IMG/VR virus record: IMGVR_UViG_3300029327_000053
Coordinates: 1 to 41,522 of that record
Direction: 5' to 3' (one strand)
Origin: a virus
Length of the DNA stretch: 41,522 nucleotides
The first letter of the stretch is position 1. Each line of letters begins with the position of its first letter. The position numbers and the translations under genes were made by a program. The notes under the pieces were generated by a model. It saw only the letters and a program-made list of their open reading frames with translations. It ran no database searches and was not told the DNA's origin. Below, piece by piece: positions 14,916 to 41,522 of this stretch.

Positions 14916-15730
14916 CAAATGCAACCGCGCGAAAGAAGGTCGCCTCAAAAAAGTTGCCCATGCCGCGCAAGCCTGTTGCCGTCAAGGCGGCGGCCGCTAA
15001 ACTTGCGCGTCCGGATCCGGCCGCCGCGCGCCGGTACCAGAAAACCCAGCGCGAATACGTCGCGCTTTACGGCGTTTCTCTTCCCACCATCAAGCGCTGG
15101 TGGAAAGCGGGCCGCCCGCTCGACGATCCCGACGCCATGGGCGAATACCTCTCGCCGCGCGGCCGCAAGCCGGACAACGCTCCCGACTTCGAATCCCCCT
15201 CAATCACGCCGCCGCCTCCCCCCGATGAGAATGGGTTTCCCGTGGATGAGGAAATCCCCATTAAACTCGGCGAGGATTTCTTCAAAGGCGCGGGCGTTCT
15301 GGCCGCCATCGAGCGTCTGAAAAAGGCCGAGCGCGAGCGTGCTGCCGCCTACTTCAAGGCCATCTTGAACCGCCAGGCTCCACAGATCCTCGCCAACCGC
15401 TTCAAGGAATGGACGGGCCTCATTGAGGTTTTGCGCAAAGTCGAAAAAGACGCGCCGGAGATCCGCAAGCTCAACGAGCTCACCATCGACCGCGCCGAAA
15501 TGGAGACAGCCGTCGGGCAGATCTTCCAGTCGTTCCGCACCGCCGCGAACAACCTACCCGGGCGCGCCGCCGGCAAACTGATCGGCCTCACGGAACGCGA
15601 CGAGATCCTCGACGTGCTCGAGCGCGAGGTCGAGGTACTCTTACGCACCCTCACCGATATTACCCTGGAGTCCGTCGACAAGGCGGAAGCCGCCGCGGCT
15701 CCCGGTGATGACACCCCGTCGGAAGCCTGA
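14888..15730 (+). CDS. Probable terminase small subunit
   Basis: A 280-residue protein starting at GTG 14888. The N-terminal 50 residues are basic and Ala/Lys-rich. Residues 52-85 are a helix-turn-helix (KTQREYVALYGVSLPTIKRWWKAG), as in small terminase subunits that recognise packaging DNA. A proline-rich linker (SITPPPPPDENG) leads to a long helical C-terminal half that should oligomerise and bind the large subunit. The stop overlaps the start of the large subunit (TGATG), which is the usual pairing. The call rests on position and the helix-turn-helix. TTGACA lies 14 nt upstream of the start. Confidence 0.72.
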   Translation: MSGKKPKVSANATARKKVASKKLPMPRKPVAVKAAAAKLARPDPAAARRYQKTQREYVALYGVSLPTIKRWWKAGRPLDDPDAMGEYLSPRGRKPDNAPDFESPSITPPPPPDENGFPVDEEIPIKLGEDFFKGAGVLAAIERLKKAERERAAAYFKAILNRQAPQILANRFKEWTGLIEVLRKVEKDAPEIRKLNELTIDRAEMETAVGQIFQSFRTAANNLPGRAAGKLIGLTERDEILDVLEREVEVLLRTLTDITLESVDKAEAAAAPGDDTPSEA

Positions 15731-17718
15731 TGTTAAATGCCCTAAAAGCCTTCCGAGTCATCGCCGTTTGCGCCACGCTCGCCTTCAAGATCCCGCCGAA
15801 AATGCGGATCGCGGATTGGCTCTGCAAATACGTCTCCATCCCGCAGATCACCGGCGCGCTGATGCCGGGCCCGCTCGACACAAAATTGAACCCTCCCTTT
15901 GAGGGCCTCTTTGACCTCCTGGCGCAGCGGCACGTCCACTACTTCACCCTGGCCAAATCAGCCCGCGTCGGCGGCACGCTCTTTGCCATCAGCTACGTGC
16001 TGCACCAGATCGGCACCGGCGCGCACCCCATATTTTGGCTAGACCCTTCTCGTTCCTCAGCGCGCGCCCTCGCCCGCCGTGAGCTCCAGCCGTTCCTTCT
16101 GGAGTGCCCGCCCGTGGCTGAGCAGGCGATCGTCGATCGCGAGCATTGGACCGCCGCCATGATGTTCTTCCGTGGCGGCTCGTTTTTGAAAGTCGCCGGC
16201 GCCGGATCCCCGAATGAATCCGCCGGGTTCCAGGCCGAGATCATCGTCATCAACGAAGGCGACAAGGTCCACCACACCACCAAAGGGGAAGCGCCGGCGC
16301 ACGAGCTGGCCATCGTTCGTTCCAAGCAATTCCGCCACACGCGGAAGATCATCGAAAATTCCACGCCCACCGATGAATTCGGCCCCACCTGGCGCCGGTT
16401 CCTCAAAGGCAGCCAGCATTATTGCTACATTCCCTGCCCCCATTGCGGCCTGAAACAGCGCCTCACCTTCTTCCCGGAGGAAAAAGAGGTCCCCTTCGAC
16501 GAGGAACTCAACCCGCTTCCCCCCGGCCAGGTTCGCATCGAGAAAACCGGCAAGATGTTTTTCGATCATTGCCGCGTCATCGAGCGGCGCGAAGTCGAGC
16601 CTGGAAAATTCGAAGACGTCCCCACCGGATGGGATTACGATCGCGTCCTGGCCGAGACCTATTACGAATGCGCCCACGGCTGCCGCATCGAGTACCACGA
16701 GCTCAACAAAATGCTCCGGCGCTACAAGTGGGTGCAACACAACCGCAAAGCCCCGCGCGATCACGTTTCGCCCCACTATTGGGCCGCCTACTCCCCGTTC
16801 GAGCACTGGGGCGAAATCGCGAAAAAATACCTACTGGCAATCGGCGACTTCGGGGCGATGCACGATTTCTACAACAACGATCTCGGCCTGCCATTCAAAG
16901 CCGTGGCCACGGAGGTCGATGAAAGCGACATCCAGCGCCTGGTTAAAGCATCCCCGCACTACCTGCTGCGCACGATTCCGCTCGAGCCGGAAATGATGAC
17001 CATGACGACCGACGTCCAGCAGCAGGGCAGCGCAAATCCATTCTGGTGGCTCGTCTTCGCATGGGGAGTCGATTGGAGCAAGCCTGACTGGCCCACGTGG
17101 GGCGCGCTGGTCGATTACGGCCCAGCAGTGTCCTGGGAACAAATCGAGGAGATCGCCGGGATCCGCGCCGACCCCAAGGGCCACTGGAACGAATACGCCT
17201 GGAAAAACCCCATCACCGGGGAGCTGAAAAAGATCCGCGTGGAAGCGGGCCTCGTCGACTCTGGCGACCAGGCTCAGAGCGAGGCCAACGTCTACGAGTT
17301 CTGCCTCTCCAACAGCGATATTTTCAGCCCATCAAAGGGCGGCTCCCGCGCCCATCTGCGCGGCCAGCTCATCCGGCTCACGCCGGTCTACGATAACAAG
17401 CTCCAGCTCATCTGGTATTGGTCCGACGTCTTTTGCCAGACCGTTTACCGCCGGATCATCAAGGACCGCAAGTTGTGCCGATACCTCCCGGTCGATCTCA
17501 ACCAGGATTTTTTCGATCAGCTCACCGATGAGCATACCGTCATGGAGAACGGCCGTCTCATCTGGAAAGCCCGCCGGAAAAACAACCACTTGGGCGACTG
17601 CTGGAAGCTCCAGGAAGTGTTATCGGGAACCGTCGAGGAAGTCCTCGATGAAATCCGGCTCCGGCGCAAGCTGGCCGAGGAAGCAGCGGCGGAAGTGGCG
17701 GCCGCCGATAAAAAATAA
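15730..17718 (+). CDS. Phage terminase large subunit, GpA family
   Basis: A 662-residue DNA-packaging motor of the lambda GpA type. It has an N-terminal ATPase with a variant Walker A near 76-83 (KSARVGGT), Walker B IIVINEGD near 171-178 and the coupling motif NSTPTDEFGP near 211. A Cys cluster, C237/C240 (CPHCG) and C315/C319 (CAHGC), is typical of the family. The C-terminal nuclease has acidic residues D429 (TTDV) and D511/D514 (VDSGDQ). The length is normal for GpA. It cuts concatemers and pumps DNA into the prohead through the portal encoded downstream. Confidence 0.92.
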   Translation: MLNALKAFRVIAVCATLAFKIPPKMRIADWLCKYVSIPQITGALMPGPLDTKLNPPFEGLFDLLAQRHVHYFTLAKSARVGGTLFAISYVLHQIGTGAHPIFWLDPSRSSARALARRELQPFLLECPPVAEQAIVDREHWTAAMMFFRGGSFLKVAGAGSPNESAGFQAEIIVINEGDKVHHTTKGEAPAHELAIVRSKQFRHTRKIIENSTPTDEFGPTWRRFLKGSQHYCYIPCPHCGLKQRLTFFPEEKEVPFDEELNPLPPGQVRIEKTGKMFFDHCRVIERREVEPGKFEDVPTGWDYDRVLAETYYECAHGCRIEYHELNKMLRRYKWVQHNRKAPRDHVSPHYWAAYSPFEHWGEIAKKYLLAIGDFGAMHDFYNNDLGLPFKAVATEVDESDIQRLVKASPHYLLRTIPLEPEMMTMTTDVQQQGSANPFWWLVFAWGVDWSKPDWPTWGALVDYGPAVSWEQIEEIAGIRADPKGHWNEYAWKNPITGELKKIRVEAGLVDSGDQAQSEANVYEFCLSNSDIFSPSKGGSRAHLRGQLIRLTPVYDNKLQLIWYWSDVFCQTVYRRIIKDRKLCRYLPVDLNQDFFDQLTDEHTVMENGRLIWKARRKNNHLGDCWKLQEVLSGTVEEVLDEIRLRRKLAEEAAAEVAAADKK

Positions 17719-18225: not shown

Positions 18226-18504
18226 ATGAATGACGCCTTTGTCCAATCGCTCGCCGACATTGCCGAGGAGCGCGGCTCCGAAGCCTTCCTGGTCGAGCTG
18301 CGGGATTCCTGCATGGCCAAAATCGCCGAAGGGGGCGGCGAGGTCACGTTCATGAAGCAAGCCGGGCAGAACGGCAAGACTGCCCAGGCGGAATGCATCC
18401 TAGATGCCTCCGAACTCCTCGTTGCCGTCACGGCCGCCCTCCGGCTCTTCCGGGACCAGACGGTCACCGTCACTTACGTCGACTTTAGCGGGATGATATT
18501 ATGA
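18226..18504 (+). CDS. Small head protein, possible gpW-like connector
   Basis: A 92-residue protein. It has an N-terminal acidic helix (FVQSLADIAEERGSEAFLVELRDSCMAKI), a central polar strand (GGEVTFMKQAGQNGKTAQAECI) and a C-terminal helix and strand (LLVAVTAALRLFRDQTVTVTYVDF). The position directly before the portal and the helix-hairpin-helix look match the head-joining protein gpW of lambda, but no sequence motif proves it. A CGTTGACA box lies 14 nt before the start. The stop overlaps the portal start (ATGA). Confidence 0.58.
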   Translation: MNDAFVQSLADIAEERGSEAFLVELRDSCMAKIAEGGGEVTFMKQAGQNGKTAQAECILDASELLVAVTAALRLFRDQTVTVTYVDFSGMIL

Positions 18505-20063
18505 GCATCGGCGGCATTGTTCGCAGCACTATTGCCGGAGCCGCAATGCGCTTCAGCGCCTGGCTCCAGCCCTATTCGGAAATCACGCGGCCCTCTGCCG
18601 ATCGCGAGAACATTTTCTATTACCTCCCCTCCGATTCCCGGTTCTACCTCGACACCTGGACGCGTCGGGAGATCCTCCGCAAGGTCGATTGGCTCTACCA
18701 GACCTTCGGCCTCGTCAAAGAGGCCATTCGGGGCACCGCGCGCCACACGGTAGGCAAGGGCATCTGTCTTTCCGTCAATTCCGATGACGAGGACTTCAAC
18801 GCGGCCGCCGAGGCCGATTTCGATCTCTGGGCCCTCGCGCCGGCGCGTTGCGACCGCTCCGGGCGCCGGAATTTCTACGAGATCCAGACGCACGCCGTGC
18901 GCCAGCGGCTCAAGCAGGGCGAATTCTTCGCCGCGTTCGTCCCCAATCCCCGATGGGATAATGAGCCGTGCCTGCGGCTTTACGACGCGATGGAGATCGA
19001 ATCCGCACCCGACGAGATCAACGAATATAACATCGACGGCGTCAAGCTCGACCACGATCACAACCCCATTGCCTTCACCGTACGATCCGGCGAAGAAAGC
19101 CATTCCGACATTCCCGCCGCAAACATGGTCCACTGGTTCGATGGGGACCAGACCAACCAGGTCCGAGGCGTCTCCGATTTTGCCCAGGCCGTCGTACCAC
19201 TCGTGGATGCTCGCGAGCTCATCAAGCTCGTCACCAAGACGGCCAAGCAAAACAGCGCCATCGGCCTGCACATTAAGAAACTGGTGAAAGCCGGGGGCCG
19301 CGGCGCGCTGGACAAGATCCGCAGCCACATCCAGGCGGGCGGCCCTCCCAACGGCCAGCCAGGCCAGGCGGCCCAGCCCAATCCCGACCATCCCAAATAC
19401 GAACGCCTCACCGGCGGCGGTGCGATCATCTATACCGATGAGGACGGCGACGTCAAATTCCTGACGCCCAACTCCCCCTCGCCCTTGGTCGAGCCCTTCA
19501 TCAACAAAGTGCTCATCCGCGACGCCGCCTGCTCCTGGGGAGTTCCCCAGGAATTCTTCTGGGAGGTAGGCCACATCAATAGCTCCAGCTCCCGCTTCAT
19601 CCTGATGCGCGCCGATGCCCTTTTTTCCACGCTGGGAGACGGCCTGGTCGGCCGTCTCTGCCAGCCCGCTGCCGTTCGCTACCTCCAGCACCGCATCGAG
19701 ATCGGCGCGCTCGCCGAGCCGAGGGACCCGAAGTGGATGAACAAACTTTCATGGCAGCTCCCCATGCGCGTCACCATCGACAATGGCCGCGACGGCGCGT
19801 TGGAGATCAACCAGCTTGCCAATGGCATCGAGAACCTTGCCACCATCAACGACCGGCGCGGCCGCAACTGGCGGCAAATCACGGAACAGTGGTTCCGCGA
19901 AATGGCATACGCCTCCAAGCAGGCCAAAAAGCATGGCGTCGATTGGGCGCTCGCCCTCTGGCGGCCCAATACCCCGGGCGCAAAAGGCGGCGAGGCAAAC
20001 CCCAACGACCTCGAGGAAAAGCTGGAGGACGCCCAGCCCGGCTCCTCCCAAGGTGACAAATAG
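18501..20063 (+). CDS. Phage portal protein, lambda family
   Basis: A 520-residue protein that should form the dodecameric ring for DNA entry and exit. It has the order and motifs of the lambda-type portal: an N-terminal segment with SDSRFYLDTWTRREILRK, a central FDLWALAPARCDRSGRRNFYEIQ, HAVRQRLKQGEFFAAFV, the stretch PAANMVHWFDGDQTNQVRGVSDFA, and near the end GVPQEFFWEVGHINSSSSRF. Length and position fit. It starts at an ATGA junction and is followed by the capsid protease, as in lambda B-C. Confidence 0.92.
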   Translation: MSIGGIVRSTIAGAAMRFSAWLQPYSEITRPSADRENIFYYLPSDSRFYLDTWTRREILRKVDWLYQTFGLVKEAIRGTARHTVGKGICLSVNSDDEDFNAAAEADFDLWALAPARCDRSGRRNFYEIQTHAVRQRLKQGEFFAAFVPNPRWDNEPCLRLYDAMEIESAPDEINEYNIDGVKLDHDHNPIAFTVRSGEESHSDIPAANMVHWFDGDQTNQVRGVSDFAQAVVPLVDARELIKLVTKTAKQNSAIGLHIKKLVKAGGRGALDKIRSHIQAGGPPNGQPGQAAQPNPDHPKYERLTGGGAIIYTDEDGDVKFLTPNSPSPLVEPFINKVLIRDAACSWGVPQEFFWEVGHINSSSSRFILMRADALFSTLGDGLVGRLCQPAAVRYLQHRIEIGALAEPRDPKWMNKLSWQLPMRVTIDNGRDGALEINQLANGIENLATINDRRGRNWRQITEQWFREMAYASKQAKKHGVDWALALWRPNTPGAKGGEANPNDLEEKLEDAQPGSSQGDK

Positions 20064-20075
20064 GAGACCAGCATC

Positions 20076-21008
20076 ATGCGATACGATCGACTCTTCACGA
20101 AGCTCTTCCGCTCCCCCCTTTTGCTGGAGCCCAACACCCGCGCCGGGTTCGAGGCCGCCCTCTGGGCCATGATGAGCGGCCAGATCCCGGAGCCGCCCAT
20201 CCTTGGCGAATCGCCAATGGATCCCACCACTTCGCCCGGGCTGCCCGTGAGGGCTCGCAATCTTCCGATGCGCTTTGACGCCCGCAAGCAAGCCCCCGCC
20301 ACCGCTCAGAAGCGGGCAGCCTGGCTGCTCGACCCCGGTTTCGGCCGCGACGGAAAGACGGCCATCCTCCACGTCGACGGCGTCATCGACAAACACCTCA
20401 GCACATTTGAGGCCTCGTGCTTCGACGCCACGGACCTGAACGACTTCGACCGCGCCCTTGGCCAGGCGGCCGCCGATCCGTCGGTCGATAACGTCCTCAT
20501 CTATTTCAACTCGCCCGGTGGCACCGTCACCGGCGTACCTGAGAGCGGCTCGAAAATTGCCGCCCTGGCCCAGCAGAAAAACGTCTTTGGCTTTACCGAT
20601 GGGCTCTGCTGCAGCGCCGCCTATTGGATGGCCAGCCAATGCGACCAGATGTTCTGTACCGCCAGCGCCCAGGTCGGGAGCATCGGCGTCTACCTCGCCG
20701 TCCTCGATGCCTCGCGTCAGCTCGAAGCCATGGGGCAAAAAGTCGAGACCATCAAAGACGGCCGTCTCAAGGCCGCCGGCGCTTATTGGAAACCACTAAG
20801 CGACGACGAGCGGGCCCATTTCCAGGCCCAGGTGAACCAGATCGGCGAGATGTTCCGCGGCGCCGTCAATGCGAAGCGGCCGTCGGTATCGAATGATACC
20901 ATGCAAGGGCAGTCGTTCATGGGCAAACAGGCGCAGGAATGCGGCCTGGTCGACGCGGTGCTCCCGGGCATTGAGGCGGCGATCGAGGAATTCGAGCAGA
21001 CCGTTTAA
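20076..21008 (+). CDS. S49 family capsid maturation peptidase
   Basis: A 310-residue serine peptidase of the SppA/lambda gpC type. The core starts near 94 (KTAILHVDGVID), with FNSPGGTVTG near 144-153. The nucleophile is S180 in GLCCSAAYWMAS and the base K232 in DGRLKAAG. The 52-residue distance equals that between Ser147 and Lys199 of Bacillus SppA. It should cleave scaffold and portal during prohead maturation. The N-terminal 90 residues are not conserved and include IL-GESPM, encoded by a palindromic repeat copy. The ribosome site is GGAGA, 12 bases before ATG. Confidence 0.92.
   Translation: MRYDRLFTKLFRSPLLLEPNTRAGFEAALWAMMSGQIPEPPILGESPMDPTTSPGLPVRARNLPMRFDARKQAPATAQKRAAWLLDPGFGRDGKTAILHVDGVIDKHLSTFEASCFDATDLNDFDRALGQAAADPSVDNVLIYFNSPGGTVTGVPESGSKIAALAQQKNVFGFTDGLCCSAAYWMASQCDQMFCTASAQVGSIGVYLAVLDASRQLEAMGQKVETIKDGRLKAAGAYWKPLSDDERAHFQAQVNQIGEMFRGAVNAKRPSVSNDTMQGQSFMGKQAQECGLVDAVLPGIEAAIEEFEQTV
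20203..20218. repeat. Intragenic palindromic repeat, copy 3
   Basis: TTGGCGAATCGCCAAT repeats 16 of the 17 bases of the two copies in the replication-type gene, and encodes the same ESP peptide in the same frame. It lies in the non-conserved N-terminal part of the S49 peptidase. Confidence 0.7.
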
Positions 21009-21739: not shown

Positions 21740-22663
21740 ATGGCTATCACAGCTTCCGCCAGTCTGAAACTCGATAAGGTTCTCAACCTTATGCTCGTCG
21801 CGTTCAAGCGCCGTCTGGCGCCAATCACGCAATTTTCCACCAAGTTTGAGGCGCGCGAAGTACCCCGCGATCACAATCTGCAGGTACCATTCATTCCCCT
21901 TGAACAGATGGATTCCATCGACTTCGACTACTCCAAGGGCTACCAATCTGGTGATTTCAATGTGGAAACCAGACCGGTACCCGTGAATAAGCGGAAATAC
22001 CAGGTTCTGCAATTCACGATGAAGGATTTGCTGGGACTGTCCGTCGAAGTTCTCGATACATCTCTCGCCGCCAAGGCCGATAAGCTTGGTGCCGACGTCA
22101 CCGCCGACATTTTGAGCGTCATCAAAGCCGCGAAATTTGGCGACGCCATCGCATCCTATGCCGACGGCGTTTTCGATGCTGATAGCGCCGCCGATCTCTC
22201 TGTCAATTGCGGCGCGGCAAACTGGCCGACCGTCAACCGCCAACTGATTGTCGATGAGGTTTGGAGCCGCCAACTCCTCAAAGACCCTGCTCTGCGCAAT
22301 GCCCAGGCATCTGGCAGCACCGCTACCCTACGCGATGGAATCATCGGCCGCGTTAGCAATTTCGACGTCACTCCCGTACCCAACCTTCCGGACAACGGCG
22401 AATCCCTCAAAGGATTTGCGGCGTTTAAATACGGCATCCTCGTCGCCAACGCTCCCATGGAAGCGACCGAGGAGGTCAAGGAACGCCTTAGCGATTACCG
22501 GCTCGTCACCGACCCGCAAACTGGCCTCACCCTGGTCTATCGTGCCTGGGGCGATCCCGACATGGATTCGGCGAAGAAAACGATCGAATTCGGATACGGC
22601 TATGCCCCCGGCGACGCGAACCAGATCAAACGCCTCACCCTTTCGGCTCCTGCTCAGGGCTAA
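21740..22663 (+). CDS. Major capsid protein
   Basis: A 307-residue protein following the scaffold, of normal length for a HK97-fold capsid subunit. Typical traits are an N-terminal helix (LKLDKVLNLMLVAFKRRLAPI), a strand region with YQVLQFTMKDLLG, and a central helix with DVTADILSVIKAAKFGDAIASYADGV. The C-terminal block FAAFKYGILVANAPM ... YRLVTDPQTGLTLVYRAWGDPD resembles capsid proteins of other siphophages. The identity rests on position and these family-like patterns. No ribosome site is present before the ATG. Confidence 0.8.
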   Translation: MAITASASLKLDKVLNLMLVAFKRRLAPITQFSTKFEAREVPRDHNLQVPFIPLEQMDSIDFDYSKGYQSGDFNVETRPVPVNKRKYQVLQFTMKDLLGLSVEVLDTSLAAKADKLGADVTADILSVIKAAKFGDAIASYADGVFDADSAADLSVNCGAANWPTVNRQLIVDEVWSRQLLKDPALRNAQASGSTATLRDGIIGRVSNFDVTPVPNLPDNGESLKGFAAFKYGILVANAPMEATEEVKERLSDYRLVTDPQTGLTLVYRAWGDPDMDSAKKTIEFGYGYAPGDANQIKRLTLSAPAQG

Positions 22664-22689: not shown

Positions 22690-22932
22690 ATGACTTCCGC
22701 CATCACCCTCGCCCGCCCGCACGGCTCCCAGAAATGGGAAACCATCAAGGGACCTGAGGCCCCGCTCCCCGCGCAGATCGTTGCGTTCCGTGAGTTCCAG
22801 GGCCTCCGGACGCATCCCCGGTTTGCCGAGGTGCAGCTCTGGGTCAGCAACGAGGGCATCGCCAAAAAGCGGATCCTCCAGCCCGAGGCCGAACCGGAAA
22901 AGGAAAAGTCCGGCGGCAAGAAAAAGTCTTAA
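22690..22932 (+). CDS. Small protein after the capsid gene
   Basis: An 80-residue protein with a beta-rich first part (AITLARPHGSQKWETIKG) and a charged lysine-rich tail (EPEKEKSGGKKKS). The middle segment EVQLWVSNEGIAKK suggests a small head-completion or decoration protein, but this is by position only. TCTGAC lies about 16 nt before the ATG, which is a poor match to the TTGACA box. The initiator tRNA begins one base after its stop. Confidence 0.62.
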   Translation: MTSAITLARPHGSQKWETIKGPEAPLPAQIVAFREFQGLRTHPRFAEVQLWVSNEGIAKKRILQPEAEPEKEKSGGKKKS

Positions 22933-22933
22933 T

Positions 22934-23008
22934 CGCGGAGTGGCGCAGCGGTAGCGCGTCGGGCCCATAACCCGAAGGTCGCCGGTTCAAATCCGGCCTC
23001 CGCAACCA
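22934..23008 (+). tRNA. Initiator tRNA-Met (fMet type), anticodon CAT
   Basis: A complete 75-nt cloverleaf including encoded CCA. The acceptor strand CGCGGAG pairs with CUCCGCA, leaving a C1-A72 mismatch. The anticodon stem has three consecutive G-C pairs (UCGGG/CCCGA). Both are the defining marks of bacterial initiator tRNA. The T arm is GCCGG-UUCAAAU-CCGGC. The anticodon loop is CCCAUAA, so position 33 is C rather than the near-universal U. It is in the capsid-tail module on the coding strand and has its own terminator, so it should be transcribed late. Confidence 0.93.
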
Positions 23009-23012
23009 ATTT

Positions 23013-23049
23013 GAGCCCGGGCAAGGATCGCCTGGGCTCTTCCATTTTT
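23013..23049 (+). terminator. Intrinsic terminator after the tRNA
   Basis: GAGCCCGGGC (23013-23022) pairs with GCCTGGGCTC (23030-23039), a 10-bp stem with one G-U pair and a 7-base loop. TTCCATTTTT follows. It may end the tRNA transcript and reduce read-through from capsid into tail genes. Confidence 0.75.
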
Positions 23050-23062
23050 CACCACAAACGAC

Positions 23063-23437
23063 ATGCCAAAAATCAACATCCCCACACTCATCGCCGAGGG
23101 CGCATCCATCAAGGCCCGGGTGAAAGCAGACGCGGCCCGTCTCAAAGAAATCGAGGCCGAACTCATCCGCCAGGGCGCGGGCAAACATGAAGGCGACAAC
23201 GGTGCCTCGTGCACCGTGATTATCGGCGCGGCGGCAATCAAACTCCCCAAAGACGCAGTGGACAAGGTTCGCGAGCTGCTCGGCGAGGAGCATTTCAAGA
23301 CCCTCTTCGACCGCACCGTCGGCTATGCGCCCGTGAAAGGTTTCCGCGACGTGGCCGCCGCTGTCCTCACCGAGGCCAAGGCCCGCAAGATCATCGCGCT
23401 TTGCGAAACGCCGGCGTCTCCCTACGTCAAATGGTAA
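23063..23437 (+). CDS. Hypothetical head-tail region protein
   Basis: A 124-residue protein. An N-terminal helix is rich in Ala, Lys and Glu (EGASIKARVKADAARLKEIEAELI), then comes a strand (NGASCTVIIGAAAIKLP) and helices (DKVRELLGEEHFKTLF; AAVLTEAKARKIIAL). The helical start resembles phage proteins with a DUF-type charged helix but I cannot name it. It starts 13 bases after the terminator T-run with no ribosome site. Confidence 0.65.
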   Translation: MPKINIPTLIAEGASIKARVKADAARLKEIEAELIRQGAGKHEGDNGASCTVIIGAAAIKLPKDAVDKVRELLGEEHFKTLFDRTVGYAPVKGFRDVAAAVLTEAKARKIIALCETPASPYVKW

Positions 23438-26967: not shown

Positions 26968-29244
26968 ATGGGCCAAATCCGCGCCGATCTCAACCTGAAT
27001 TGCGATAAGTTCCTCGCCGCCATCCGAACGGTCGACAACGCCGTCGAGCACCTGGAGCACAATATCGTCGGCTTCGTGGCCGGGTTCAAAGGCCTGCAAA
27101 TCGCAGGGGAAGCGATCGAGTCACAGTTCGAGCACCTAAAACAGAGCTTGGAACTGGGGGCCACCCTGAGGGAAGTGAGCCTCAACACAAACCAGACGGT
27201 TTCGGACGTGATGCTCCTGCGCCAGGTCTTTGAAAATTCCGGCATGGGGGCAGAATTTGCCGAGCAGGCCATTTTCAACCTTAATAAATCGCTCGCCGGC
27301 GTGAACGAGGCCGGGGAGCCGACCAAGGGCGTTTTTGAAAAACTGGGCCTTTCCATCCAGGCCCTGCGGAGCCTCTCCACCGTCGACCAGTTGAAAATGC
27401 TGGGCGAGGCGTTCCGTAACATCGAGAACCCCGCCGATCGCGCCCGGGCGGCCGCCGACCTCTTCGGCAAGTCCGGGAAGCGCATGATGCAGATCTTCGG
27501 CGAGCCGGAGGCCTTCGCGATCGCCGCGACCCAAATCGGCGGCTTGGGCGAAACCATGGAGGCTAACGCCAAGGTGTTCAAAGAGATCGAGGATGAGATG
27601 GGCGCGCTCAATCTCAAGGCCCAGCAGCTTTGGGCCGGGATCGCGCAGGGTTCCGCCGGTGAACTCAAGGAAACCTTGGAATCGCTCCGGAGCGCAGATC
27701 TATCCGAGCTTGGCGAAAGCATCGGCGGCGTCATCACCAACGCGCTTCATCTCGCGAAAGTGCTTTGGGAAATTCGGCCCATCCTGATCGGCATCGGCGC
27801 CGCCATGGCGGCCAATACCATTGCAAGCTCTCGGTGGGGCGAAATCGTCCGGAATGCCACCCGGGAGGCCATTGGCGGCTTCGGGGGCCTCAATGCCGCA
27901 GTCAATACCTTCTCGGCCTGCCTGGTGCGATCGGAAGGGGCCATGGCCAAGCTCGCGTTTACGGGCCGGGTAGCCTTTGCGTCGCTTGCGGCCGGCGCGA
28001 AAGCTTTGTATACGGCCCTCGGCCCCATCGGCTGGGGCATCATGCTCGGTACCGCCGCAATGCAGGCCATCCATGGCCGCGCCGATAGGATTAACAACGC
28101 CTCGAGTGCGGTAAAATCAATCGGAGAGGAAAAAACCAGCCAGGCGCGGCAGAATTTTGCGGAGATGAACCACGTCTCTTCGGAAGGGGAGCGGGCCACC
28201 ATGGCCGAAAAGCTGGCCAAGCAGCTCGAAGAAGTCCACGAAAAGATCCGCCAGGTCAATGAGGATTTCTCAGACGAAAAGGGATTCGACGACGCGGGCC
28301 GGGCGCGTATTACCGAGGAATATGAAGCGCAGGCCCATGCGATAGAGCTGCAAGAGCGTTCCCTTGGGCATATTCCACAAGCGTTGCTCGATGCCCGCGC
28401 CGCCGCTAAGCATGAGGCCGAGGCTCTCGAGGAGGCGCGTAAAAAAGCCGAGCAGCTCACGGAGGAAGTCGCCAAGGGCCGCCAGCAGATGGAGTCCGAC
28501 ATAGCCAAGGCCTCATTCGACGAACTCACCCCGCAACAGCAAAAAGATAAAACGCTCTCCGACGTCGGAGCCAGCAGCGCCGAGGACATTGAGCAGGAGT
28601 TGGAGCAGCTCGACAAAGTCATTGAGCTCAACAACGAGCAAGGTAAGCAGAGCGACCGCGAACTTGAGCGGCAAATGAAGCTCATCGAGGCCCGGCGCGC
28701 TTTGATCGGCATCGAGAAGGCGATTAAAAAAGAACGCGAGGACCAGGAGCAAAAGGACCAGGCCGCCAAGGAGAAAAAGCAAAAGCAGGATGCCCGCTAC
28801 AACGATTTCGAGCGCGATTGGAAGCTTGAGGTTGCCAAAACCCAGGCCGAGATTCGCGGCGATGACGCCGGTGTTAAGCGCATCGAGCATCAGCAGCGTG
28901 TGAACCGCTATGAAAAAGAGGCCATCGACGTAGGCGAGGATCCAGCGCTGGCGCATAAAATGGCCGAGGCCAGGGCGACGGCCGACGATACCCTCGCTGC
29001 AAAAAAGGAAGCCGATAAGGAAAAGAGCGCTCCTCAATATGCCGTCGGCCATTTACGTTCGATCGGCGGCGGTGGCGTGGGCTTTGGCGCGAGCGATCCA
29101 CTCCTGCGGGAATCCCAGCGCCAAAGCCAAGCGCTGCGCGATCAGCTCACTGCCATTAACAGGACCAATTCGCTGCTTGAGTCGCTTAAAACGGCCCCCC
29201 CGTCCCAGCGAAACCCCGTCTTCGGCTCAGGGTATGGTTATTGA
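26968..29244 (+). CDS. Tail tape measure protein
   Basis: A 758-residue protein that sets tail length and delivers DNA through the membrane. The N-terminal 250 residues are helical and carry a TMP-core-like segment (LREVSLNTNQTVSDVMLLRQVFENSGM; EAFRNIENPADRARAAADLFG). Two hydrophobic stretches lie at about 251-285 and 328-368, the latter with GPIGWGIMLGTAA. Residues 375-700 form a very long charged coiled coil (Glu/Lys/Ala/Gln). At roughly 0.15 nm per residue a tail of about 110 nm would follow. The stop TGA is inside a TTGACA box for the next gene. Confidence 0.92.
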   Translation: MGQIRADLNLNCDKFLAAIRTVDNAVEHLEHNIVGFVAGFKGLQIAGEAIESQFEHLKQSLELGATLREVSLNTNQTVSDVMLLRQVFENSGMGAEFAEQAIFNLNKSLAGVNEAGEPTKGVFEKLGLSIQALRSLSTVDQLKMLGEAFRNIENPADRARAAADLFGKSGKRMMQIFGEPEAFAIAATQIGGLGETMEANAKVFKEIEDEMGALNLKAQQLWAGIAQGSAGELKETLESLRSADLSELGESIGGVITNALHLAKVLWEIRPILIGIGAAMAANTIASSRWGEIVRNATREAIGGFGGLNAAVNTFSACLVRSEGAMAKLAFTGRVAFASLAAGAKALYTALGPIGWGIMLGTAAMQAIHGRADRINNASSAVKSIGEEKTSQARQNFAEMNHVSSEGERATMAEKLAKQLEEVHEKIRQVNEDFSDEKGFDDAGRARITEEYEAQAHAIELQERSLGHIPQALLDARAAAKHEAEALEEARKKAEQLTEEVAKGRQQMESDIAKASFDELTPQQQKDKTLSDVGASSAEDIEQELEQLDKVIELNNEQGKQSDRELERQMKLIEARRALIGIEKAIKKEREDQEQKDQAAKEKKQKQDARYNDFERDWKLEVAKTQAEIRGDDAGVKRIEHQQRVNRYEKEAIDVGEDPALAHKMAEARATADDTLAAKKEADKEKSAPQYAVGHLRSIGGGGVGFGASDPLLRESQRQSQALRDQLTAINRTNSLLESLKTAPPSQRNPVFGSGYGY

Positions 29245-40038: not shown

Positions 40039-40695
40039 ATGTTCCCCCGCGACGCCCTCGAGTTGATTTTCCGCTTTGAACCACTCTGCCAGCCGGGCAA
40101 CTGGCTCGGGGGAATCCATGGGATTACGATCGGCTACGGCTACGACCTGGGCACCAAAACGGCCCACCAGTTCGTGAGAGACTGGAATGGGCTGCTGACC
40201 GCAACCCAGCTTGGCCGGCTATTGGCCGTTGTCGGCGTATGCGGCACGCGAGCCGCGGAGGCCGCACCGCTCCTCAAGGATATCGAGATCCAGGCCGAAT
40301 CCGCCCAGGTCGTCTGGGTCCTGACCGAGCTGACCCAGCTCGAGCGCGCCGTCGCGGCCGTTTTTCCCGGCGTGGAATATTTCCCGGACCTTGCCCGGGG
40401 CGCCCTGGTCTCCCTGGTGCAGAGCCGGGGCACGCGCCTGGACGGCGCCCGCCGCGAAGAGATGCGGGAGATCCGTGACGAGATCGAAAAATGCGCGAAG
40501 ACACATGGCATCGGTTACGGGACCAGGTGTCATATCGCGGCCCACCTGGTCCGGTGCATGAAAGGCCATTTTCCGCTACCAAGAGGCGTGCAAGCGCGCC
40601 TTCGCCGCGACGCCGAAGCCGAGCTGCTGGAGCGCGCCGCAAAAGTTTTTATGAACACCAACCCAGCGCCGGAGGAGCTTATGCCTCTCCAATAG
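40039..40695 (+). CDS. GH24 endolysin (T4-type lysozyme)
   Basis: A 218-residue protein. Residues 7-38 (LELIFRFEPLCQP, then GGIHGITIGYGYDLG) match GH24/pesticin-type lysozymes. E14, T30 and D36 are at the expected catalytic positions. The motif WLGGIHGITIGYGYDLG corresponds to the family's usual G-G-x-S-G-x-T-I-G-Y-G-Y-D-L-G. The rest is helical as in the family. It cleaves the N-acetylmuramic acid to N-acetylglucosamine bond. No signal peptide is seen, so release needs a holin. Confidence 0.85.
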   Translation: MFPRDALELIFRFEPLCQPGNWLGGIHGITIGYGYDLGTKTAHQFVRDWNGLLTATQLGRLLAVVGVCGTRAAEAAPLLKDIEIQAESAQVVWVLTELTQLERAVAAVFPGVEYFPDLARGALVSLVQSRGTRLDGARREEMREIRDEIEKCAKTHGIGYGTRCHIAAHLVRCMKGHFPLPRGVQARLRRDAEAELLERAAKVFMNTNPAPEELMPLQ

Positions 40696-40721
40696 AAGCC
40701 GAAATCCGAATCAAACCCGCG

Positions 40722-41522
40722 GTGAGCTGGCCGGGAGGAAAGTCCCGGTTGCTCAAACATATTATTCCCCTTATTCCCGAGCATCAATGCTACGTGGAGC
40801 CCTTTGGAGGGGGCCTCGCCGTATTCCTCGCCAAAAAGAGATCTCCCCTTGAAGTAATCAACGATCTCAACGGGGACTTGGTCAATTTTTACAGGTGCGT
40901 TCGGTTCCACTCCGAAACCTTGCTCACCGAAATAGAGTTTGTCCTAAATAGCAGGGAAGAATTCTACGATTTCAGGACACAGCTCGGCCTGACGGATATT
41001 CAACGCGCAGCGCGCTGGTTTTATCGCAACAAGACGTGCTTTGGAGGCTGCGATATGCGTTCCTTTGGCACCTCTGCGGTCTCGGGCGGCGGCGCGGCGC
41101 TGGGATCCCGAGCGGCTCGAATGGAGACCATACGAGCCCTCAATGTGCGCTTGGATCGCACGTGCATCGAGCACGTGGATTGGGAAAAGTGTGTGGATCT
41201 CTACGACCGAACAGGGACATTCTTCTTTTTCGATCCGCCGTACATTGAGTGCTGTGACACCAGTTATGCCGCATGGAAGCCCGAAGACGTGAAACGGCTT
41301 AAGGCACGGCTCGCTCAGCTCAAAGGCAAGTGGGTGGTAACGCTAAACGACTCGCCTACCGTCCGGGCGATTTTTGAAGGGTGTGACCTAACCCCGGTGG
41401 AGCGAGCCAAGGGAATCAACAATCGGAACCCTAAGAGCCGGAAATACCGGGAGCTGATTATTCGGCCCAAGGATCTTTCCGTTCCACCTCCGGGAGAATG
41501 CAATCCGCCCCCCGCTTTTTGA
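40722..41522 (+). CDS. dam: DNA adenine methylase, D12 (Dam) class
   Basis: A 266-residue N6-adenine methyltransferase. Motif I-like PFGGGLAVFL (27-36) binds S-adenosylmethionine after the N-terminal WPGGKSRL. Motif NDLNGDLVNFYR (47-58) and the catalytic DPPY (171-174, FFFFDPPYIE) follow. The order fits the alpha/D12 class of Dam-like enzymes, which usually methylate GATC, though the target here is unknown. I start at GTG 40722, giving MSWPGGK as in relatives; the frame is open further upstream over the lysozyme gene. No restriction enzyme is nearby, so it may protect phage DNA from host restriction. Confidence 0.88.
   Translation: MSWPGGKSRLLKHIIPLIPEHQCYVEPFGGGLAVFLAKKRSPLEVINDLNGDLVNFYRCVRFHSETLLTEIEFVLNSREEFYDFRTQLGLTDIQRAARWFYRNKTCFGGCDMRSFGTSAVSGGGAALGSRAARMETIRALNVRLDRTCIEHVDWEKCVDLYDRTGTFFFFDPPYIECCDTSYAAWKPEDVKRLKARLAQLKGKWVVTLNDSPTVRAIFEGCDLTPVERAKGINNRNPKSRKYRELIIRPKDLSVPPPGECNPPPAF

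Follow-up and report, generated by a model that had tools for sequence, protein, structure and literature searches.

Organization of the locus

The window, by which we mean the whole stretch of 41,522 nucleotides analysed here, sits inside contig C15 of a 4.1-Mb draft genome and is thus a prophage. Its att sites are a 29-bp exact repeat at C15:154934-154962 and 196984-197012, the latter copy lying within the 3'-terminal part of a gene for tRNA-Leu(GAG). The repeat copies lie outside the window (L033:19703-19731 and L034:985-1013) and give a prophage size of about 42 kb; a gene for a D12-class adenine-specific DNA methyltransferase is located at 40491-41522, near the right prophage end. The features that concern us are as follows.

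15730-17718, + strand: terminase large subunit (PHROG 15)
18501-20063, + strand: portal protein (PHROG 21)
20076-21008, + strand: head maturation protease (PHROG 53)
21740-22663, + strand: major head protein (PHROG 283/267; also in 22 other genomes of the host order)
22690-22932, + strand: 80-aa ORF behind the major head gene, with tblastn homologues in related prophages; 1 base separates its stop codon from the tRNA
22934-23008, + strand: initiator-type tRNA-Met(CAU) gene, CCA encoded at 23006-23008 (ARAGORN, Rfam, cloverleaf parse)
22944-22956, + strand: C11 (22944) and G24 (22956), a D-stem pair of elongator type, the tRNA being otherwise of initiator type (sequence, parse, frequencies in PMC5143459 Table 3)
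22961-22973, + strand: GGGCCCATAACCC, arm with three G-C pairs (29-31:39-41) (sequence; no clean chromosomal copy in 388 sampled genomes of the host phylum)
22965-22968, + strand: C33 (22965), then the CAU anticodon (22966-22968) (sequence, ARAGORN anticodon position)
23013-23049, + strand: hairpin with a T-rich tail, the intrinsic terminator that ends the capsid transcript (fold; position, not sequence, conserved in tRNA-less relatives)
23063-23437, + strand: 124-aa gene of no family, the first after the terminator
26968-29244, + strand: tail tape measure protein (PHROG 9483)

The tRNA gene therefore lies, as the first-pass annotation had placed it, inside a capsid-tail module, with terminase, portal, protease and head genes upstream and the tail module downstream. 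That annotation also credited the tRNA with its own terminator, whose hairpin (23013-23039) has 10 pairs, 8 of them G-C, with a fold of -21.4 kcal/mol, and is followed by TTCCATTTTT. This second claim fails, since three relatives without the tRNA (L311, L312 and L313), which carry behind the head gene either homologues of the 80-aa ORF or other genes in its place, fold a strong hairpin-T terminator in the gap that matches the tRNA and terminator of the window. The terminator thus belongs to the capsid operon, and the tRNA was inserted ahead of it, behind the last stop codon; the tRNA is not an autonomous unit with a terminator that is absent when the tRNA is. No promoter-like site was seen in the + strand sequence near the tRNA, and the 1-base gap behind the stop codon of the ORF leaves no room for one, so that the simplest account has the tRNA produced as the 3'-terminal part of the capsid mRNA.

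Such an arrangement is peculiar to this phage among the related prophages examined: none of 29 other loci of the host order has a tRNA within about 1.5 kb of the head gene, and a search of IMG/VR by portal or head protein found no related phages. The gap behind the head gene is occupied otherwise elsewhere. In a second, related prophage of the same host, a PIN-domain (VapC-like) gene in opposite orientation stands directly behind the head gene, where the window has its tRNA (G000:C27:31990-32349; L483:1489-1905); the host genome was found to have just one further PIN gene, at C1:51244-51630. A relative in another genome (G324) has in this gap an extra ORF with a signal-peptide-like start.

Identity elements of the phage tRNA

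Formylation of an initiator tRNA is determined by C1xA72, G2:C71 and C3:G70, aided by A11:U24, while the three G-C pairs of the anticodon stem are the determinant for the ribosomal P site. The sole tRNA that ARAGORN detects in the window is a + strand tRNA-Met(CAU) at 22934-23008, which Rfam RF00005 matches with 66.3 bits (E 2.2e-12). It is 72 nt long plus CCA, with an intact cloverleaf. The acceptor has C1xA72, G2:C71, C3:G70 and G4:C69, then A73 and the encoded CCA; the D-stem is GCGC:GCGC with a 7-nt D-loop; the anticodon stem G29-G30-G31:C39-C40-C41 forms three G-C pairs around the loop C32-C33-C34-A35-U36-A37-A38; and the T-loop reads TTCAAAT. The C1-A72 mismatch, the three G-C pairs, C33 and the encoded CCA, all listed by the first-pass annotation, are hence present, and the gene is a real tRNA gene with the build of a working initiator.

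Judged by the features of bacterial initiators, the tRNA has the 1:72 mismatch (C1xA72), the pairs G29-31:C39-41 (GGG/CCC, the accepted variant being AGG/CCU), and CAU, A37-A38 and A73; it departs from them at 11:24, which is C11:G24 in place of A11:U24, and at position 33, where C (22965) replaces U. Owing to the former departure, we class it as a hybrid, initiator-like and not a canonical member. Position 11:24 is an A:U pair in 4430 of 4438 bacterial initiators and a C:G pair in 3 of them, whereas elongator Met and Ile(CAU) tRNAs nearly always have C:G there (PMC5143459 Table 3); a 1:72 mismatch, mostly C1xA72, occurs in 98.6% of bacterial initiators (PMC5143459). C11:G24 and the 7-nt D-loop, neither of which was mentioned at first reading, separate this tRNA from ordinary bacterial initiators more than C33 does.

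The cytosine at position 33

The first reading had presented C33 as special, which holds in so far as the host initiator has U33, but not as a phage-specific trait, for C33 is chromosomal in whole bacterial clades. Among the matches listed from GTDB species genomes, chromosomal C33 initiators occur in Weissella, Leuconostoc, Fructilactobacillus, Erysipelotrichaceae, Phycisphaerae, Elusimicrobia, Victivallales, many Patescibacteria and some archaea, and 54 of 114 C33 initiators among these matches have C1xA72. An IMG/VR scan left open at position 33 returned mostly U33, with C33 in two among the matches listed, and C33 was accordingly discarded as a phage hallmark. Being chromosomal in several clades, C33 is not defining and by itself gives no evidence of escape; it is a rare, tolerated initiator variant. 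Neighbours of C33-type phage tRNAs include terminases and HNH genes. Another genome of the host phylum has three tandem copies of chromosomal type with C33 (G227:C46:1910-2116).

Comparison with the host initiator

The host genome contains a single detected initiator (G000:C22:12074-12150), which is the only other match to the window tRNA gene in this genome and is 84% identical to it. The two share C1xA72, G2:C71, C3:G70, CAU, A37-A38, A73 and an encoded CCA; however, the host initiator has U33, A29:U41, A11:U24 and a 9-nt D-loop, where the phage copy has C33, three G-C pairs, C11:G24 and a 7-nt D-loop. In the alignment their stem differences amount to four double compensatory changes (6:67, 11:24, 29:41 and 51:63) that leave every pair intact, a pattern consistent with selection for folding. 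This selection could have acted in an earlier carrier, the host copy not being the direct ancestor.

A29:U41 is the rule in the host phylum, in which nearly all chromosomal initiators among the matches listed read AGGC.CATAACCT. A scan of 388 genomes of the phylum for all three G-C pairs gave 2 matches, the window prophage and G494; the G494 match lies at a palindromic contig end and was rejected as an artefact, which leaves the window prophage as the one clean case in 388 genomes. Within 213 genomes of the host order, the closest initiator is at most 86% identical to the window tRNA. No local donor of the D-arm was found among 32 loci holding host tRNAs, the phage copy aside.

The first-pass annotation had allowed for an ancestral host copy, which an identical host tRNA with C33 would have indicated. 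The alignment with the host fMet tRNA did not find this; given the 84% identity, U33 and a three-GC arm foreign to the phylum, the gene is not an ancestral host copy, and most likely it was acquired horizontally, its sequence being foreign to both host and phylum. It had further been remarked that an anticodon arm equals that of the vertebrate initiator. As a sign of relationship this is not supported: by whole-gene identity to the human initiator the window tRNA ranks 12th of 370 bacterial and phage initiators. A eukaryotic origin, considered since the D-arm also resembles eukaryotic initiators, was rejected on such whole-gene ranks (12/370 for human, 22/370 for yeast). These ranks make convergence the simpler reading of the eukaryote-like arms, and the match to the vertebrate arm looks convergent.

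Initiator tRNAs in other phages

Phage initiator tRNAs are already known and not rare, so that calling one unusual overstated the case: 67 INPHARED records match the window gene, and the matches of our pattern scan in IMG/VR number at least those listed. tRNA-fMet genes of phiLM21-like Sinorhizobium prophages (PMC12429752) and of large Caulobacter and Aeromonas phages are likewise phage-borne and of initiator type; in the annotated examples phiLM21 and EBPR siphovirus 2, however, the gene lies outside the capsid operon, while the window copy lies within it. Among the U33 initiator matches listed from IMG/VR, 29 of 117 keep the 3' half without a well-matching 5' half (e.g. L162, L178, L179, L191, L208 and L220), as expected of att sites, and phages thus seem to use host initiator genes commonly for attachment.

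Most phage initiators have the canonical A11:U24. Nevertheless, C11:G24 occurs in 15 of 170 distinct IMG/VR initiator-type tRNAs (8.8%) vs 3 of 4438 published bacterial ones (Fisher p 1e-19), percentages that are approximate as the samples are pattern-selected from among the matches listed and the published reference set was annotated differently. None of the 107 distinct chromosomal initiators that we collected has this pair, and the C11:G24 D-arm pattern appears in 1 of 388 genomes of the host phylum, i.e. the window prophage. A direct scan for the C11:G24 D-arm together with an initiator anticodon arm gave at least 119 IMG/VR stretches, and 102 distinct hybrid tRNAs were parsed from the matches listed, 88 of them with U33 and 51 with a 9-nt D-loop. 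Position 1:72 is paired in 39 of the 170 initiator-type tRNAs (among the matches listed), far above the published bacterial table (PMC5143459); judging from these sequences, the acceptor identity of phage initiator-type tRNAs seems relaxed or altered.

The closest tRNA among the matches listed (IMG/VR L601) is 90.3% identical to that of the window. It has the identical GAGTGGCGCAGCGGTAGCGCG D-arm and likewise adjoins a major head gene, ending 24 nt upstream of it (PHROG 371, E 3e-113); but it has U33 and G1xA72 and precedes a head gene of another family, whereas the window copy has C33 and C1xA72 and follows its head gene. Two phages whose head proteins belong to different families hence both have a hybrid initiator next to the head gene. 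The neighbours of other hybrids are head, head-tail, exonuclease and HNH genes, and such a variety means that hybrid tRNAs are not limited to capsid operons.

A literature search of open-licence papers found no paper describing a hybrid C11:G24 phage initiator, and this identity recurring in phages is apparently undescribed. The nearest analogues are engineered, tRNA-iniG1/C11/G24 and tRNA-iniP, which share the elongator/Pro-type 11:24 pair with the window tRNA (PMC10450175); they were made in vitro for EF-P with a 9-nt D-loop and G1, while the phage copy occurs naturally and has C1xA72 and a 7-nt loop. In vivo activity has been reported for a C11:G24 initiator (PMC10450175), and three G-C pairs plus C1xA72 moved into elongators suffice for initiation (PMC7949028).

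Shine-Dalgarno motifs in phage and host

A further suggestion at first reading was that the phage tRNA may serve many phage genes without ribosome sites. Shine-Dalgarno (SD) motifs precede 5 of 36 phage genes (window 10057-40695; chance 17%), which bears out the scarcity itself; the host genes flanking the prophage, with 5 of 46 and 10 of 72, are equally SD-poor, all these counts being based on crude gene calls. A need specific to the phage was therefore rejected, there being no special phage need for start capacity, although start capacity may matter generally. The host 16S was not found in the draft genome.

Proposed role of the phage initiator

The usual account of phage tRNAs, codon supply to elongation, cannot explain an initiator tRNA. 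We consider it about an even chance (roughly 0.5) that the gene is a horizontally acquired initiator, a passenger riding on the 3'-terminal part of the capsid transcript, where it would add start capacity late in infection. The phage would have acquired the gene so that it came to sit between the last capsid stop codon and an existing terminator; the tRNA would be transcribed with the capsid genes, released by RNase P of the host together with 3' processing, aminoacylated by the host MetRS through CAU and A73, and formylated through C1xA72, G2:C71 and C3:G70, perhaps more weakly on account of C11:G24, before entering the ribosomal P site. There its full three-GC arm may compete well with the weaker A29:U41 version of the host, and the chief gain would be start capacity that is additional, or partly independent, at the time when virion proteins are made and capsid mRNA is abundant. 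From its identity elements we infer that it works as an initiator, its P-site arm being stronger than that of the host and its formylation possibly weaker; on the other hand, C11:G24 and C33 may lower its efficiency in initiation, the host has an initiator of its own and no need of the phage copy, and within the lineage only one phage carries such a gene.

Among other explanations, an att remnant or an ancestral or recently captured host copy hardly deserves credence: prophages do often integrate in tRNA genes, and many U33 matches in IMG/VR are half-genes resembling att sites, but the att core here is a 29-bp piece of tRNA-Leu(GAG), and the window tRNA is complete, interior and of an arm type foreign to the host phylum. 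Nor do the isotypes, Leu(GAG) at the att site and Met in the phage, agree as tRNA-dependent lysogeny, in which a phage tRNA takes over from the att tRNA that integration disrupts, would have it. A plausible but rather unlikely alternative is that VapC/PIN-type toxins of the host or of a rival prophage would cut the initiator anticodon arm and that the phage copy, through its changes at 33, 29:41 and 11:24, would evade the cut and make initiation possible again. In phage tRNAs the anticodon loop is often changed where nucleases cleave (PMC10264068), VapC enzymes cleave tRNA-fMet between anticodon stem and loop (PMC8522696), and the host has two PIN genes, one in the corresponding slot of the second prophage; against this, C33, being chromosomal in many clades, does not have to reflect escape, the closest phage tRNA among the matches listed has U33, and phages facing Shigella VapC generally avoid encoding tRNA-fMet (PMC10264068).

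It is similarly doubtful that the tRNA is cargo of little or no consequence, which came to rest behind the capsid genes where insertions are tolerated and leaves phage fitness unaffected. Its absence from all 29 other head-gene loci of the host order and the apparent tolerance of the gap, which accommodates the PIN gene in the sister prophage and the extra ORF of the G324 relative, agree with this idea, whereas the compensatory stem changes, the intact identity elements and the recurrence of the same hybrid type in unrelated phages do not. Much less probable is a tuned D-arm, by which C11:G24 phage initiators would imitate the tRNA-Pro D-arm read by EF-P and so speed the first peptide bond: in the presence of EF-P, the yield of full-length product from the poor starter N-acetyl-proline rose 14-fold with an engineered C11:G24 initiator (PMC10450175), and half of the phage hybrids (51/102, among the matches listed) have the 9-nt D-loop needed by the EF-P motif, but the 7-nt D-loop of the window copy leaves the known motif incomplete.

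Returning to the acquired initiator adding start capacity, the window tRNA is partly ordinary, as phage initiators are known and C33 is tolerated, and the hybrid identity is apparently the new part. A phage initiator foreign to its host, with the full P-site arm that the host lacks and breaking the 11:24 rule, offers a direct test of whether translation initiation is manipulated by phages. A broader proposal, which we put forward only tentatively and regard as rather improbable at present, is that phages recurrently evolve a distinct initiator class, combining initiator acceptor and anticodon arm with an elongator/Pro-type D-arm and often an altered 1:72 or 33, as their own starting channel for virion mRNAs, competing with or bypassing the host initiator and start control. 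The IMG/VR survey suggests that the hybrid type is widespread among phages.
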